From: an uncultured Bacilli bacterium
GTDB taxonomy: Bacteria > Bacillota_I > Bacilli_A > RF39 > UBA660
Length of the DNA: 48,296 nucleotides
NCBI GenBank assembly: GCA_944332025.1
Contig: CALVJB010000005.1
Coordinates: 1 to 48,296 of the forward strand
Direction of reading: 5' to 3'
Part shown: positions 2,995 to 17,830 of the stretch, piece by piece
Layout: each line of letters opens with the position of its first letter
Position numbering within the stretch: the stretch's first letter is position 1
The notes under the pieces: generated by a model
What the model saw: the letters and a program-made list of their open reading frames with translations, nothing else
The model's database searches: none
Told to the model about the DNA's origin: nothing
Program-made: the position numbers and the translations under genes

Positions 2995-4239
2995 ATGAAA
3001 ATAATAACTTTAGATGAAATTAGTTTTGACAAATTTGCAAGCACTCATAAATATCGTAACTATTATCAAACATCAGCTTACGGAAAAACTATCAAAAACC
3101 ATGGTTATGATATTCACTACATTGGTATTATAGATGATTCAGGTAATCTTTTAGGAGCATCATTACTTCTATATAAAGAAGTAATGATGAACTACAAAAT
3201 TGCCTATGCACCACGTGGCTTTCTTTTGGATTACACTAATATTAATAATTTAAAAGAATTTTCTACAAGACTAAAAAAATTATTAGGCAAACAAGGCTTT
3301 ATTTCAATTACAATTGACCCTTATCTTCCTGTAAACATTAGAAATAAAGATGGTAAAATAATGAATATTAATAATGACTCTAATATTGCTTTAGAAAATC
3401 TTAAAGCCTCAGGATATAACTATTTAGGACCAAACTTATTTTTTGAAAGTAAAAAACCAAGATTTGAAGCGATTATTACTCTAAATGATGATATTAAAGA
3501 TATATATCAAAGCTTTGAAAAAAGAGTAAGACATAAGATTAAGAAAGCTATTAGAAGCGGTGTTGAAATATATAAAGGTGGTAAAGAAGAATTAGATTTA
3601 TTTTATGAACTTATAAAAAAGAAATATGATAAGTCTTTAAGTTATTATATAGACTTCTACAATAATTTTGAAAATAATATTGACTTATACTTTGCTAAAC
3701 TAAACACAGAAACTTTTGTCATTACTAGTAGATTACAATATGAAAGAGAAATAGAAGTAAATAATGACCTAGCTAATAAAATACAGAATAGCAAAAACGA
3801 GAACACTAAAAAGAAATTAATTAACGAAAAAATGGAATCTGACAAATTAGTAAACACCTACAAAAAAAATCTTGTTTGGGCTACTAACTTACTAAAAGAA
3901 AATCCTGAAGGTTTAATAATAGGAACATCTTTAAATCTAACTTACGACAATGTTGGTTACTTAATAATAGAGGGATTTAATCAAAATTTTAAAACTCTAA
4001 ATCCAAACTATCTTATCAAATGGAAAATGGTAAATGACTACAAAAATAAAAACTTTAAGTATATAAATTTAAATGCAGTAAGCGGAGAATTTAATAAAAT
4101 AACAAAATACAGTGGTCTTAACGAAATGAAACTAGGATTTAATTCTTTAGTAACTGAATATATCGGAGAATTTGAACTTATTGTTAGCCCTCTACCTTAT
4201 AATTTATATAAGAATTTAAACAAAGAAAAAAAGAAATAA
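2995..4239 (+). CDS. FemAB/FemX-family peptidoglycan interpeptide-bridge aminoacyltransferase
   Basis: FemX-type enzymes transfer an amino acid from aminoacyl-tRNA to the stem-peptide lysine (or an existing bridge residue) of lipid II at the inner membrane face. The 414-aa protein shows the duplicated GNAT-like fold of the family. An insertion of about 60 highly charged residues (around 235-295, rich in Glu/Lys/Asn) matches the family's helical coiled-coil arm. The C-terminal half carries the LIIEGFNQNFKTLNPNYLIKW segment typical of these enzymes. ATG 2995 is preferred to GTG 2983, which would begin too close to the predicted transcription start. The amino acid added cannot be read from sequence. 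The protein supports a cross-bridged peptidoglycan in this organism. Confidence 0.85.
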   Translation: MKIITLDEISFDKFASTHKYRNYYQTSAYGKTIKNHGYDIHYIGIIDDSGNLLGASLLLYKEVMMNYKIAYAPRGFLLDYTNINNLKEFSTRLKKLLGKQGFISITIDPYLPVNIRNKDGKIMNINNDSNIALENLKASGYNYLGPNLFFESKKPRFEAIITLNDDIKDIYQSFEKRVRHKIKKAIRSGVEIYKGGKEELDLFYELIKKKYDKSLSYYIDFYNNFENNIDLYFAKLNTETFVITSRLQYEREIEVNNDLANKIQNSKNENTKKKLINEKMESDKLVNTYKKNLVWATNLLKENPEGLIIGTSLNLTYDNVGYLIIEGFNQNFKTLNPNYLIKWKMVNDYKNKNFKYINLNAVSGEFNKITKYSGLNEMKLGFNSLVTEYIGEFELIVSPLPYNLYKNLNKEKKK

Positions 4240-11866: not shown

Positions 11867-12931
11867 CTATAATATTCTCCCATAAGCATCCTCCTGGGGT
11901 TTCTTTAAGTATTCTTTAAAAAGTATTTTATTATACATATTCATTTGTAATTTATAACACTTACCATGAGAACTATGTCCTAACCAAGAATTCCATTCAA
12001 GCACTGTCTTATCTAAGTCAAGAAGACCTCTTTCATAAAGTAGATTCCAACGTCTTACTTTTCTTTTAATCTTTTTAATACTTCTTTTCCTAAGTAATCT
12101 ATAACTCTCATATATCCTAAATCCACAGAAATCGAGTCCCATCTTATTAGGATAATATCTACTCTTATTGTTAAGTTCTAAATGAAGTCTTGTCTCTACA
12201 TATTTCTCTACTTCCTTAAGAACATTCCTAGCTTCTTCCCTACTCCTAACAAACATAATAAAGTCATCCATATATCTTACATAATATTTAACTTTAAGTA
12301 CTTCTTTAACATAATGATCAAGTTCATTCATATAAATATTGGCAAAAAACTGTGAAGTATAATTACCAATAGGAAGACCTACTTCTTCACCATCATTATA
12401 TATAAATTCATAAGTCAAAGCCAAGAGTTTATCATCTCTAATAAATCTCTTTAAGATATTATATAAGATATCTTTATCTATATTATAAAAGAATCCCTTA
12501 ATATCACATTTAACAATATAATAAGTACCATATTTATTTTTCATCTTCTGCATATACTCTTGAGCTCTATCAACCGCTTTATGAGTCCCTTTACCTTCAA
12601 TACAAGCATAAGAATCATTAATAAAACGAGGAACAACATAAGGTTTAATAAATTCATGAATATACCACTGATGAACAATTCTATCCACATAAGGTAATGC
12701 TCTTATAACTCTTTCTTTAGGTTCATATATTTTAAAAGTTCTATATTTACCCATTTTATATGTACCATTCCTTAACTTCTTATAAAGATTAACTATATTA
12801 GACTCTAAATCTATATCAAACTTTAATACTTCCCTAGAATATCTCTTAGTCTTACTAGCACGTTCATGAGCATCAAGCAAGGCTTCAATAGTTAAATGTT
12901 TATCAAAAGCATTTCTTATCGTGTGAGGCAT
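11867..12931 (-). CDS. Diversity-generating retroelement reverse transcriptase
   Basis: The RT copies the template-repeat RNA into cDNA with errors opposite adenine; the cDNA then replaces the variable repeat of the target gene. The 354-aa protein has the RT fold: catalytic KCDIKGFFYNID near residues 141-152 (motif A), YMDD at 220-223 (motif C), and GLPIGNYTSQ at about 185-194. The last carries the Ser-Gln typical of DGR RTs and related to group II intron enzymes. There is no endonuclease or maturase domain, and the length is in the normal DGR range. Its start overlaps the accessory gene by 16 bases. TR3 and the target VR differ only at adenines, which is independent evidence that this class of enzyme has acted here. 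Confidence 0.96.
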   Translation of the reverse strand: MPHTIRNAFDKHLTIEALLDAHERASKTKRYSREVLKFDIDLESNIVNLYKKLRNGTYKMGKYRTFKIYEPKERVIRALPYVDRIVHQWYIHEFIKPYVVPRFINDSYACIEGKGTHKAVDRAQEYMQKMKNKYGTYYIVKCDIKGFFYNIDKDILYNILKRFIRDDKLLALTYEFIYNDGEEVGLPIGNYTSQFFANIYMNELDHYVKEVLKVKYYVRYMDDFIMFVRSREEARNVLKEVEKYVETRLHLELNNKSRYYPNKMGLDFCGFRIYESYRLLRKRSIKKIKRKVRRWNLLYERGLLDLDKTVLEWNSWLGHSSHGKCYKLQMNMYNKILFKEYLKKPQEDAYGRIL

Positions 12932-13272: not shown

Positions 13273-13438
13273 ATAGTCGCCCTCCAAAATGCATTTTTTT
13301 CTAACATTCGTTAATCTACTAGTCAGAAAAAAAGTTACTTCTTTTTTTTATTTGCATATGCAAAAAGGAAAAACTTTCTATGATATATATTTTTTATTAT
13401 ATCCATAATAACTTAAATATCTCTTACATCATAGTTCT

Positions 13439-13549
13439 CATCACGAGGCGGAACGAGTTGGTACTGTTAGGACTACCTGTAATGTTAGTATTGTTGAAGT
13501 TGAATACACCTGCATTAGTATTATTATTATAACCACCGCCGCGCACTAG
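13439..13549 (-). repeat. DGR template repeat TR1
   Basis: Bounded by the conserved edges CATCACGAGGCGGAACGAG and CCGCCGCGC. Read in the minus direction it encodes RGGGYNNNTNAGVFNFN, then NTNITGSPNSTN and SFRLVM. Most mutable codons are AAY or ACN, the hallmark of a template poised for A-directed change. At non-A positions it differs from TR3 and from the local VR (for example the ITGSP segment), so it should serve a different target. Confidence 0.85.
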
Positions 13550-13590
13550 CTACAAAAAACAAAAAACAATTATTAAGTTTCTCCCTCTAC

Positions 13591-13619
13591 AAAATAACAT
13601 AAATATCAAAACAGTACAA
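13591..13619 (-). promoter_or_regulatory. Promoter-like box upstream of TR1
   Basis: Minus strand TTGTAC, 17 bases, then TATTTT with a TGT extension, about 40 bases before the TR1 edge. The identical arrangement recurs upstream of TR2 (13940-13968) and TR3 (14267-14295). Confidence 0.5.
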
Positions 13620-13788
13620 TATTTATTTAAATTTAATTATAAACTATTATTTTCTAGTATTCGTAAAACTACTAACTAGAAAAAAATTACTTCATTTTTT
13701 TATTCATAATGAATTGGAAAAAACTCTCTATGACATATATTTTTTATTATATCTATAATAACTTAAATAATCATCACATCATAGTTCT

Positions 13789-13899
13789 CATCACGAGGCG
13801 GAACGAGTTGTTAGTGTTAGCACTTCCAAGATTGTTAGTACGGTTGAAGTTGAATACACCTGCATTAGTGTCATTGTTATAGTTACCGCCGCGCACTAG
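13789..13899 (-). repeat. DGR template repeat TR2
   Basis: Same edges as TR1. The sense reading is RGGNYNNDTNAGVFNFN followed by RTNNLGSANTNNSFRLVM. It is closest to TR1 in its 5' flank, sharing the CTAGCTACAAAAAAC-type edge, but has its own non-A differences in the core. No VR matching it lies in this window. Confidence 0.85.
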
Positions 13900-13939
13900 C
13901 TACAAAAAACAAAAAACAGTTATTAAGTCTTCCCCTTAC

Positions 13940-13968
13940 AAAATAACATAAATATCAAAACAGTACAA
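13940..13968 (-). promoter_or_regulatory. Promoter-like box upstream of TR2
   Basis: Minus strand TTGTAC (13963-13968), 17-base spacer, TATTTT (13940-13945) with TGT extension; same placement as for TR1. Confidence 0.5.
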
Positions 13969-14120
13969 TAATCAAATAAAAAATTCTAGTATTCGTTACC
14001 TACTAACTAGAAAAATATTACTTCATTCTTTTATTCATAAATGAATTGGAAAAAACTCTCTATGATATATATTTTTTATTATATCTATAATAACTTAAAT
14101 ATCTCTTACATCATAGTTCT

Positions 14121-14232
14121 CATCACGAGGCGGAACGAGTTGTTACTATTAGCATTACCAAAATTCCAGGTATTGAAGTTGAACACACCCGCAGTAGTAG
14201 TATTAGTATAGTTACCGCCGCGCACCAACCAG
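14121..14232 (-). repeat. DGR template repeat TR3, cognate template of the local VR
   Basis: Aligned without gaps to the target VR at a constant offset of 1850 bases. Over 14121-14224 there are 11 mismatches, all at coding-strand A of the TR (8 A to G, 2 A to T, 1 A to C). That is 11 of 26 adenines changed and none of the 78 other positions. A single non-A difference (coding G to T) lies just outside, at 14225/16075. The sense reading is RGGNYTNTTTAGVFNFN, then TWNFGNANSNNSFRLVM. This proves the TR/VR pairing from sequence alone. Confidence 0.97.
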
Positions 14233-14266
14233 TAAAAAAATAATACAATTAAGTTTCTCCCTCTAC

Positions 14267-14295
14267 AAAATAACACAAATATCAAAACAGTACAA
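14267..14295 (-). promoter_or_regulatory. Promoter-like box upstream of TR3
   Basis: Minus strand TTGTAC (14290-14295), 17-base spacer, TATTTT (14267-14272) with TGT extension. Confidence 0.5.
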
Positions 14296-14461
14296 TATAT
14301 ATTTAAAATAATTATAAACCATTATTTTCTAGTATTCGTTATCTACTAACTAGAAAAATATTACTTCATTTTTTACTCATAATGAATCGGAAAAAACTCT
14401 CTATGATATATATTTTTTATTATATCCATAATAACTTAAATATCTCTTACATCATAGTTCT

Positions 14462-14579
14462 CATCACGAGGCGGAACGAGTTATCGTTGTTAGCACCTCC
14501 AGTAATGCCGTTATTGTTGAAATAGAATACACCAGCAATTGCACTAGAAGAATTATAGCCACCGCCGCGTACCAACCAA
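14462..14579 (-). repeat. DGR template repeat TR4
   Basis: Same edges as the other TRs. The sense reading is RGGGYNSSSAIAGVFYF, then NNNGITGGANNDNSFRLVM. The core is two codons longer than TR3 and differs at non-A positions, so it is not the template of the local VR. Its upstream promoter-like region is unlike that of TR1-TR3 and follows a terminator hairpin. Confidence 0.83.
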
Positions 14580-14629
14580 CAAAAAAAAGAAAAGGCATAT
14601 TAAGTTTCTCCCACTATAAAACTATCATT

Positions 14630-14661
14630 AAAAACAACAAAAAGCAAGGGAAAAGCCTTGC
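14630..14661 (-). terminator. Intrinsic terminator between the fifth copy and TR4
   Basis: Read on the minus strand: GCAAGG-(6)-CCTTGC followed by a T-rich tract. It would stop transcripts entering from the direction of the fifth copy, isolating TR4-TR1. Confidence 0.75.
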
Positions 14662-14785
14662 CTATGACTACTGATATTCGCCCAAATAAACTACTAACCA
14701 TCATCATATATATAAGTTCACTTATAAAAGTAGGAATTAAATCTCTAGGATATTAATTTTTTATTATATACATAATAACTTAAAT

Positions 14786-14915
14786 TACGATTATATCGTA
14801 GTCATGCTCATCACGAGGCGGAACGAGCTATACGAGCATCAAAACAAAATAGAGCAACAAAGAACACTGTCGAAAGCAAACAAAAAAAAAGCATCACCGC
14901 CGCGCAACAACCAAG
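14786..14915 (-). repeat. Fifth TR/VR-like copy, decayed, with recipient-type hairpin
   Basis: It has the conserved edges (14809-14827 and about 14896-14904), but its core is not Asn-rich. Read in the minus direction it is T-rich, with an in-frame TGA and no upstream start. The flank matches the VR rather than the TRs: GTCATGCT against GTCACGCT next to the edge, and WLLRGG rather than LVRGG. A TACGAT-(3)-ATCGTA hairpin (14786-14800) ends exactly 8 bases from the edge, as at the true VR. I read it as a relic recipient; a non-standard template is the alternative. Confidence 0.6.
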
Positions 14916-15100: not shown

Positions 15101-15762
15101 ATGGATGTAAATGTTTTAAATGAAATATCATATGGTATGTATATAATTACTACAAAAGTGAAAAATAAAAATGTAGGATGCCTTATCAGTACAGTAACAC
15201 AAATAACTTCAAAATCACCTATAATTTCAGTAAGTATAAACAAAGAAAACTATACAAATAAAATTTTAAAGGAAACAAAAAATGTGCAATTTCTATTTTA
15301 ACAGAAGAAGCAGATCAAAAACTTATATCAACATTTGGATATTTTTCATCAAAGGATATAGACAAGTTTAAAGATGTAAAATGGAAAGAAATAGATAGTT
15401 TACCAATAGTATTAGAAAAAACATGTGGATATATAATAGGAGAAGTTATAAATATAATAGATGTTAATACTCATGACATATTCTTAATAAAAGTAAAAGA
15501 AACAAAAAAAGTAGAAAACAAAAAACCAATGACATATAAATATTATCATGAAGTATTGAAAGGAAAAACATCGTCTAAAGCACCTACATATAACATAATT
15601 GAAGAAAAGGAGAATCAAATGAAAAAAGGCAAAAGATATAAATGTACAATTTGTGGATACATTTACGATGATGAAAAAGAAAAAATCAAATTTGAAGATT
15701 TACCTAATGACTGGAAATGTCCAATATGTGGTGTAGGTAAAGATAAATTTATTGAAATATAA
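15101..15762 (+). pseudogene. Flavin reductase-rubredoxin fusion (Hrb-like) with a -1 frameshift
   Basis: Two frames together encode one 220-aa protein: an N-terminal flavin-reductase-like (flavoredoxin) FMN domain and a C-terminal rubredoxin with [10 protein letters not shown] and [14 protein letters not shown], the four iron ligands. Such fusions (high-molecular-weight rubredoxins) pass electrons to flavodiiron proteins that reduce oxygen or NO in anaerobes. Frame 1 stops at 15301; the rest continues in the -1 frame from the A6 run at 15277-15282. One extra A would restore the reading ...[16 protein letters not shown]. The site reads A-AAA-AAT in frame, a textbook -1 slippery heptamer. Mutation, assembly error, phase variation or programmed slippage all remain possible. 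It lies opposite in strand to the DGR parts around it. Confidence 0.85.
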
Positions 15763-15870: not shown

Positions 15871-15946
15871 TAATCATCTCGAATAATTCGACAATATTCT
15901 TTCTTTCTCTATTTTTACCATCTTATTTTGTTGAGTGCCAAAGAGT

Positions 15947-15962
15947 TAGTCCTTACGGACTA
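15947..15962 (-). promoter_or_regulatory. VR-proximal hairpin (recipient-side element)
   Basis: TAGTCC-GTAA-GGACTA on the minus strand, a 6-bp stem with a four-base loop that contains the TAA stop of the target gene. It ends 8 bases from the conserved VR edge. In the Bordetella phage DGR a hairpin/cruciform at this position promotes homing. A hairpin of different sequence but identical spacing occurs at the fifth copy; none occurs at TR1-TR4. Confidence 0.8.
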
Positions 15963-17830
15963 GTCACGCTCATCACGAGGCGGAACGAGCCGACACTATT
16001 AGCATTACCAAAATTCCAGGCATTGAAGTAGAACACACCCGCAGCAGTAGTATCAGCACAGTGACCGCCGCGCAACAACCAGGGATACTGCACGTTAACC
16101 ATATTGTGATAATCACTATACCAACCACTCGTTTCTGATAAACCATGGCTTAAACATTCACTTCCATCACAGGCTACACTAACATTTTCACTTGTATATT
16201 TATTATAATATTTAGAATCTAATGTTAATGGTTCTTCAAATCCGCTGTTTCCTACAATATCATTATAATTTCCCATTACATATTCCCAGGCACCTCCACT
16301 CATATCATAGACACCATATATCGTACCTGTTGTAGATGCACCTACTCCTTTTCCTACCATTCCATCTTCTGTTCTTATATTATCATCATATCTGTATTGA
16401 CAACCATAATCTGTATTTCCATTAGAAGGACTTCCATAACTACATCCTGTTATATATTCGTTTGACTTATTTTGATATACTTCTTTATTAACACCTATAA
16501 AATTTTCATTACCTAGCTTGCCATATTTACTTTGACTAAGATAACTAACTACAGCCCATTCATCATTTCTCATAGCATGTGAATTCATATTTTCACTAAA
16601 TCCATACCTATTTCCAGATGCACTTAATTTTAATCCTACTTGATATATATTACTTACATTAATATATCGCCAACTTGTTACATTAGGTTTTATCATTGGA
16701 TCTAATGTTGTTGTATTTCCTCCTCCATAACTTGCTAAAGGATCACTACTAGAAGTCTCAAACTTCCCTACCCAGATTCCACTAAGTTCTTCATCACCAA
16801 ACGTAAAAGCATCTGGAGTATACCAATTCTTTGGTTTCTCTGTTGCAAGATATTTAGCAGTTCCAGTATCTTTTTCATCTTTGCCGATAAATTTAACATC
16901 TATCTCTCCTGGTAAAGTTGCAGTAGGATTACTACTTAAATATACTCCTCTTTTGCCATAATATGAAGAGCCATTCTCACTACCTATAGTATAACTATAT
17001 CTAGGTATCCATACCCACATTGTCTCTACATCATCCATATTAATTTCTGTCCCAACTGGAGCACTTATATATTCTTGTAATTTATCACTTTTTACAGTTA
17101 TAGCATTAGCCCATATACCCATACCATAATTATACCAACCATTATCTTCATCAGTCTTAACCCAATTATATCCATCATGACGCACCGCTATCATATTAGT
17201 ATCCATCTCAGGAGCATTAACACCATCGTTTCCTTGTTGAAAATCAAAGCCATCTACCTGCTGTGTTGCAAATACTTTAAGTTGTCCTAAATATACTTTA
17301 CCCATCGCTTCATTAGTTGCATTAATATTAAGCCAAACTCTAAGTTCACCATCAATAGTATCAGTTGCATCTATTACACCATAACTAATAATAGAAGAAT
17401 CTGCTAAACTTCCTGTAAAAGTACTCTCACCTAACTTCAATTCATACCTTATATCTCTAGGATCTAACAGTTCACAACTTCCTCCATCTGTTGTCTGACA
17501 ATTTGCCAAAGCTTCCTCATCATCCACTAAAGATAATGTATAATATAAATCAATGTTACTTTTATTTTTTAAAGAAAATGTATAAGGGCTTGCTTTCTTA
17601 CCCTCATCATCATAAGTAGGAATAACGTTTACAAGTTGAATTCCTTCACTTGTTTCATTTAAAACTAAATCAATATCACCAACTACAATCTGTACATCTT
17701 CTTGTCCAAATATAACCGTTCTAAGCCAAGCATATGATACACCAATAATTATAATCAAAAGAACTACAAGAGTAACAATAGCCACCTTTTTCTTATTATC
17801 TCTTAAAGTTCCCCCTAGTTTTTTTATCAT
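15953..17830 (-). CDS. DGR target: membrane-anchored variable protein with FGE/C-type-lectin-like domain
   Basis: A 625-aa protein. Residues 15-33 are a membrane helix ending in GVSYAWL, like SipW-type/camelysin-like surface proteins, followed by a beta-rich domain (about 40-195). A large C-terminal domain (about 205-625) follows, with MWVWIPRYSY and YDMSGGAWEYVMGNY, typical of formylglycine-generating-enzyme/sulfatase-modifying folds used as DGR scaffolds. The end (RGGHCADTTAAGVFYF onward, residues 587-619) is the variable repeat. Comparison with TR3 shows nine diversified residues: H590, C591, A592, D593, A596, Y601, A604, V613 and G614. The invariant frame (RGG, GVF, SFRLVM) holds the fold. 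It is probably a surface ligand-binding protein; the ligand is unknown. AGGGAGG lies about 12 bases before the ATG. No sortase motif is seen. Confidence 0.93.
   Translation of the reverse strand: MIKKLGGTLRDNKKKVAIVTLVVLLIIIIGVSYAWLRTVIFGQEDVQIVVGDIDLVLNETSEGIQLVNVIPTYDDEGKKASPYTFSLKNKSNIDLYYTLSLVDDEEALANCQTTDGGSCELLDPRDIRYELKLGESTFTGSLADSSIISYGVIDATDTIDGELRVWLNINATNEAMGKVYLGQLKVFATQQVDGFDFQQGNDGVNAPEMDTNMIAVRHDGYNWVKTDEDNGWYNYGMGIWANAITVKSDKLQEYISAPVGTEINMDDVETMWVWIPRYSYTIGSENGSSYYGKRGVYLSSNPTATLPGEIDVKFIGKDEKDTGTAKYLATEKPKNWYTPDAFTFGDEELSGIWVGKFETSSSDPLASYGGGNTTTLDPMIKPNVTSWRYINVSNIYQVGLKLSASGNRYGFSENMNSHAMRNDEWAVVSYLSQSKYGKLGNENFIGVNKEVYQNKSNEYITGCSYGSPSNGNTDYGCQYRYDDNIRTEDGMVGKGVGASTTGTIYGVYDMSGGAWEYVMGNYNDIVGNSGFEEPLTLDSKYYNKYTSENVSVACDGSECLSHGLSETSGWYSDYHNMVNVQYPWLLRGGHCADTTAAGVFYFNAWNFGNANSVGSFRLVMSVTSP
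15971..16082 (-). repeat. Variable repeat (VR) of the DGR target
   Basis: Pairs with TR3 (14121-14232). Differences on the plus strand are at 15990, 15991, 15993, 15994, 16021, 16030, 16045, 16054, 16057, 16059 and 16063, each a T in the TR (A in sense). The non-A difference at 16075 lies near the outer edge, probably beyond the copied tract. Homology ends at about 16082. Nine codons are altered, all non-synonymously, and none becomes a stop. Confidence 0.97.

Follow-up and report, generated by a model that had tools for sequence, protein, structure and literature searches.

The minus strand of the window (the whole 48,296-nt stretch of DNA that was analysed) carries a diversity-generating retroelement (DGR). 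Read along that strand, the element consists of a target gene with its VR, five TR-plus-spacer cassettes (about 14.9-13.3 kb), an accessory variability determinant (Avd) and a reverse transcriptase (RT) (Table 1). Its assignment to the DGRs follows from a DGR-type RT, an Avd, a VR/TR pair that differs at template adenines only, and a hairpin 3' of the VR. The best solved relative of the RT in a comparison with the PDB is 8ub7 (E 6e-47), and the Avd scores 83.4 bits against NCBIfam NF033474 (DivGenRetAVD), above the cut-off of 80. The GTAA loop of the VR-side hairpin is a GNRA loop that does not strictly match the 5'-GRNA consensus (PMC3240598), and the hairpin was counted as one of the DGR type. 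Pfam and NCBIfam searches with the target gene gave no match, and no Rfam 15 family reached its gathering threshold in the window. In its own genome, the 3' end shared by TR and VR, TTCCGCCTCGTGATGAG, has no mismatch-free occurrence outside the five TRs and the single VR. A flavin reductase-rubredoxin-like gene that appears frameshifted (15101-15762, plus strand) lies between the VR and the array.

Table 1. Positions of the DGR features in the window
Feature	Position	Strand	Evidence or remark
RT, 354 aa; motifs LPIGNYTSQ, YMDD	11867-12931	-	RVT_1 3e-19
Avd, 123 aa	12916-13287	-	PF22296 bAvd 4e-23
Spacer RNA unit 1 (Avd-proximal), P3 = TTTGCATATGCAAA	13298-13442	-	Covariance model R1, 124 bits
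TR unit 1	13437-13544	-	
Spacer RNA unit 2, P3 = ATTCAT-T-ATGAAT	13651-13792	-	R1, 131 bits
TR unit 2	13787-13894	-	
Spacer RNA unit 3	13983-14124	-	R1, 131.5 bits; pair counts
Unit 3 P1	14116-14108 with 14068-14060	-	
Unit 3 P2	14093-14087 with 14082-14076	-	
Unit 3 P3	14046-14042 with 14037-14033	-	
Unit 3 P4	14013-14006 with 13990-13983	-	
Unit 3 putative loop E strands	AGUA 14004-14001, GAA 13994-13992; R-Y pair 14000/13995	-	
TR unit 3, template of the present VR	14119-14223	-	11/25 A changed, 0/58 other bases
Spacer RNA unit 4	14326-14465	-	R1, 129 bits
TR unit 4	14460-14569	-	
Intrinsic terminator after unit 5	14642-14663	-	
Spacer RNA unit 5 (head type: different P3, own terminator)	14668-14809	-	R1, 68 bits
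TR unit 5, adenine-poor, stop-containing head (candidate OFF) template	14807-14905	-	
Conserved 3' UTR stretch, inverted complement of head template	15887-15915		
TAGTCC-GTAA-GGACTA hairpin 3' of VR, DGR target-site type	15947-15962	-	cf. PMC3240598
Target gene: membrane-anchored surface protein, ...SFRLVM... C-terminal variable domain	15953-17830	-	
VR, 3' end of target gene	15969-16073	-	

Structure of the spacer RNA

A sequence-only reading of this DNA had pointed to palindromes that change in sequence and stay self-complementary at the same place in each of the five units, together with a second inverted repeat. All of these are present where that reading placed them. The imperfect pairs ACTCAT/ATGAAT (14375) and TTCTAAC/GTCAGAA (unit 1) can be closed by G-U on the minus strand, which encodes RT and Avd and is the strand of the DGR transcript, whereas on the plus strand they are A-C mismatches. 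While the palindromes form a real helix, here called P3, they make up only one of four helices: the second inverted repeat is P4, and P1 and P2 were absent from the list. P4, P1 and P2 are also better aligned than P3. The palindrome at 14711 exists but is not strictly the same element as the other four; the P3-homologous stem of unit 5 is more likely ACTT...AAGT (TACTTTTATAAGTG, minus strand), and the head cassettes that are homologous to it in L072, L074 and L076 do not retain the longer TATAAGT/ACTTATA pairing of that unit.

Taken alone, the palindromes of the window are weak evidence because the DNA is so AT-rich. Dinucleotide shuffles of the five units, in which minus-strand G-U and a neighbourhood of 40 nt were permitted, yielded an equally long stem by chance with frequencies of 34, 59, 68, 61 and 26% (product 0.02), and single-sequence folding z-scores were ordinary (-0.25 to -2.1). 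The five units by themselves are not compelling; with their homologues, the fold is far beyond chance. Such homologues are found in genomes of the same genus, to judge by near-identical contigs Candidatus Onthousia. These genomes, with RTs 78-98% identical, carry arrays of the same cassette with, besides the five of the window, 2 (an array cut by a contig end), 3, 3, 5, 5 or more, 6, 6, 11 and 26 units, in tandem at a spacing of roughly 310-400 nt. The 26 TR-spacer cassettes lie in tandem in a single genome (L074, 1988-11074), and P4 has been lost from some of them.

One copy of the spacer, ~145 nt long, lies directly 3' of every TR. P1 (CTATGATAT/ATATCATAG) begins ~3 nt past the TR 3' end and encloses P2 (TTATTAT/ATAATAA); the palindromic hairpin P3 comes next, followed by P4, which encloses an internal loop, UAGUA-R...Y-GAA. 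The AGUA-R..Y-GAA motif is found in 75/78 and 32/36 cassettes, and the three misses of the larger set are decayed cassettes of the single 26-unit array. Among 53 cassettes, the closing R-Y pair is GC in 27, AU in 16 and GU in 10, and is never broken; the fraction of paired cells is 94% for P1, 99% for P2, 99% for P4 and 100% for the R-Y pair. In the loop E/sarcin-ricin motif, AGUA and GAA strands are closed by a Watson-Crick R-Y pair. The P4 loop appears to match this consensus, a likeness at the level of sequence, as distinct from a structural result. The spacer of unit 5 (14668-14809, minus strand) may also form an alternative hairpin, ACGAT-ATA-ATCGT, on the 5' arm of P1, which L075 retains as CTATGAT/ATTATAG, and this hairpin in the head spacer may be a conformational switch.

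Evidence for selection on the fold came from 53-78 homologous cassettes. An alignment of the 53 regular cassettes made from sequence alone showed 71 cells changed on both sides of a pair, compared with 21.7 ± 5.4 after shuffling (0/500) and 5-12 in slid controls; with family members and a model-fitted alignment, the count was 189 versus 52.6 ± 7.9. An initial AliSim test of the structure was discarded, since its random root overstates significance, and was replaced by a tree-based null that retains ancestral pairs and per-column change counts. Against this null, 19 double compensatory events were observed where 1.8 ± 1.3 were expected (0/1000), and pair-breaking events numbered 14 where 27.8 ± 3.0 were expected (0/1000). 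Covariation is hence found when more homologous cassettes are aligned, so the result that would have refuted the sequence-only reading did not appear. The double events fall in P4 (10), the closing pair (6), P2 (2; 1/1000) and P1 (1; 63/1000), and support for P1 taken alone is weak. P3 was treated separately because the register of this helix shifts. Exchanging its 3' halves between cassettes, a test that is independent of the structure-fitted alignment, gave 13.0 for the native arms versus 11.2 ± 0.2 (0/500); on the fitted alignment, which is biased towards the structure, P3 shows 14 double events versus 1.1 ± 1.1. An all-against-all search for covarying pairs with an AliSim phylogenetic null found none that were significant (best E = 1.2), and the significance of the covariation therefore holds for the proposed structure and not for a structure-free pair search.

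The direction of change identifies the strand. G-U states were gained 40 times and A-C states 3 times, compared with about 115:92 for the corresponding changes at unpaired columns, an excess that makes the minus-strand RNA the selected molecule. These data strongly support selection on an RNA fold 3' of every TR. The earlier argument that compensatory change implies such selection is borne out by the covariation, by the G-U strand bias and by the recovery of DGR loci with covariance models.

Covariance model R1 scores all cassettes, and its matches in other genera lie nearly all upstream of Avd and on the Avd strand, with one exception (L108) beyond the RT. A second model, R2, has matches in 23 of 290 other sampled genomes of the family at E values of 0.1 or lower; in 19 of these 23 there is an Avd match as well. 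By covariance model, the spacer RNA is present beside Avd in about 20 further genera of the family, and in an order-level sample every match falls within the same family. The covariance model and the search of related genomes that the sequence-only reading had proposed have thus recovered the same RNA at DGR loci of other genera. A search for the RT in viral contigs found none. Elsewhere, at least nine TR-spacer cassettes form an independent array downstream of an RT in another genus (L233, 178-3329, minus strand), and a lone TR-spacer cassette (L207, 1537-1687, minus strand) is present in genome G002 on a different contig from the array of that genome.

Origin of the VR and the head cassette

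The VRs of the window, L071, L072, L073, L074, L076 and L077 each match one unit of their array with adenine-only change, as unit 3 does for the window; pooled over the seven genomes, VR and TR differ at 82 of 192 adenines and at 3 of about 423 other bases. Counted among the standard units, the template is the first (L071, L076), the second (the window), the 19th of 25 (L074) or the last (L072, L073, L077). Since the VRs come from differently placed units, any position of an array can serve as template. The idea that the TRs of an array serve different remote VRs was rejected where tested, as the remote VR-like genes present in several genomes match no array TR of their own genome with A-only changes. 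Orphan target genes with VR-like ends and no matching TR occur at L196, L197, L198, L203 and L221-L224, several of them with a TAGTCCGTAAGGACTA hairpin, and one genome (G027) has several orphan target genes and no RT close to that of the window.

The VR-proximal, or head, TR differs from the others: it has 9-14 adenines versus the usual 19-45 or so, a frame-breaking length and an in-frame stop. An adenine-poor, stop-containing head TR is found in the window, L069, L071, L074, L075, L076 (stop read by hand) and L077, that is, in seven of the nine arrays whose VR-proximal cassette was seen; at this position L072 and L073 carry a TR of the ordinary kind, and L070 ends before it. In two genomes the head TR sequence occupies the VR. 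The VR of L069 is identical to the head TR (75/75 core), and that of L075 differs from it by one A-to-G change and one T indel (positions 4239/5397 in L069 and 4771/4120 in L075). Both target genes end shortly after RGG. An assembly artefact was judged an unlikely source of these VRs, because reads must hold k-mers spanning both junctions, the shared ends being only about 20 and 31 nt, and because the L075 VR differs from its template.

In six genomes, the sequence of the head template corresponds, as inverted complement, to a conserved stretch 3' of the VR (14846-14874 versus 15887-15915 in the window). The duplex between the two has a native energy of -42 to -66 kcal/mol, compared with shuffled means of -33 to -41 kcal/mol, while pairing the head template with the 3' UTR of other species makes a difference too small to discriminate (-49.9 native, -47.4 swapped). 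Given this complementarity, an installed copy of the head could fold with the 3' UTR. As far as can be read from its sequence, the head TR suggests an OFF template.

Proposed mechanism and alternative explanations

By analogy with phage BPP-1, each TR would be transcribed from the minus strand together with its own spacer, which would recruit the RT-Avd complex, fix the TR 3' end and supply the priming adenosine. Synthesis of cDNA should then begin at the TR 3' end, near the start of P1. Since each cassette has its own spacer, each TR may be a self-contained template that overwrites the single VR by mutagenic retrohoming. The suggestion, made in the sequence-only reading, that RT and Avd read the structured RNA is a reasonable one that fits the position of the spacer, its one copy per TR and its co-occurrence with Avd. 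Binding of RT and Avd, priming and independent action of the cassettes are what we infer.

The tandem order of the cassettes at 310-400 nt and the variation in their number from 2 to 26 would also suit repeats that act as DNA, either as cruciforms or as recombination or duplication boundaries driving tandem amplification, with no role in RNA, and a DNA hairpin is indeed used at the target sites of DGRs (PMC3240598). This explanation is very improbable: a cruciform is not expected to show the minus-strand preference for G-U over A-C (40 versus 3), the AGUA/GAA internal loop is meaningful in RNA only, and the fold persists in genera in which one cassette was found. Somewhat less remote, and still unlikely, is a role of the hairpins as transcription signals, that is, terminators or processing sites that divide the cassettes into single transcripts. 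The intrinsic terminator in which the head cassette ends (14663-14642) makes cassette-wise transcripts plausible, but it is the single terminator-like site of the array. In the standard cassettes, P3 and P4 have an AT-rich sequence and no U tract; the GC-rich stem with a following U tract that marks an intrinsic terminator is present only after the head cassette, and the conserved internal loop of P4 is not expected of terminators. Cleavage by an RNase is conceivable.

A comparably small chance attaches to the view that only the last-used cassette is functional and the other copies are decaying duplicates whose structure is inherited rather than selected. While the loss of P4, or of parts of it, from some cassettes of the 26-unit array is consistent with decay, compensatory changes are seen among paralogues within arrays, most cassettes keep the full motif, and the unit that gave rise to the VR is the first in some genomes and a middle or the last one in others.

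We therefore regard it as probable that each TR carries a structured spacer RNA that recruits RT-Avd, making the cassettes independent templates for one VR. A wider model, on which we are evenly divided, is that of a template-switching DGR, in which 5-26 templates, built as RNA modules with their own RT/Avd-recruiting fold, would overwrite one VR by mutagenic retrohoming, and an adenine-poor, frame-breaking OFF template would silence the target, pairing once installed with the 3' UTR as a long hairpin.

Comparison with known systems

In BPP-1, the spacer 3' of the TR is a folded RNA that recruits bRT-Avd and provides the adenine for priming (PMC12875486). The Bordetella phage and the element described here share an RT with Avd and a structured RNA of similar length directly 3' of the TR (PMC12875486), as well as adenine-specific change from TR to VR and a hairpin with a GNRA-type loop 3' of the VR (PMC12875486, PMC3240598). 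One difference lies in the layout: the single TR of BPP-1 is followed by Sp and then brt, and avd lies 5' of that TR, whereas here 2-26 TR-Sp cassettes precede avd. Moreover, the BPP-1 Sp and the spacer described here show no match in sequence or structure model, and by the model they are not homologues; R2 found no match in the DGRs of phages BPP-1, FP_Lagaffe, BalMu-1 and VP58.5.

More than one TR per DGR has been described before: Stenotrophomonas SKA14 has two TRs, and Pseudomonas costantinii has six, which were called atypical (PMC6642488). Those multi-TR DGRs have several VRs or lack the A-to-N signature, in contrast to the up to 26 TRs with structured spacers and one VR found here. To our knowledge, a repeated cassette of template plus structured RNA for one target, combined with a candidate OFF template, is an undescribed DGR variant, although multi-TR arrays could be contained in earlier DGR surveys; surveys that assume one TR per RT would overlook such arrays or misinterpret them.

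The natural variants of this DGR spacer RNA number in the dozens and their covariation has been measured, so the parts of the RNA that RT-Avd requires become directly testable outside BPP-1, and an array would allow one DGR to choose among many scaffolds and possibly to switch its target off. There are parallels with antigenic variation by cassette switching, which uses silent donor arrays such as those of vlsE and pilS. In both cases many silent donors face one expressed site, but vlsE and pilS rely on plain gene conversion, whereas the element described here uses an error-prone reverse transcriptase with adenine mutagenesis. Cassette switching and hypermutation would thus be joined in one element of uncultured gut Bacilli.
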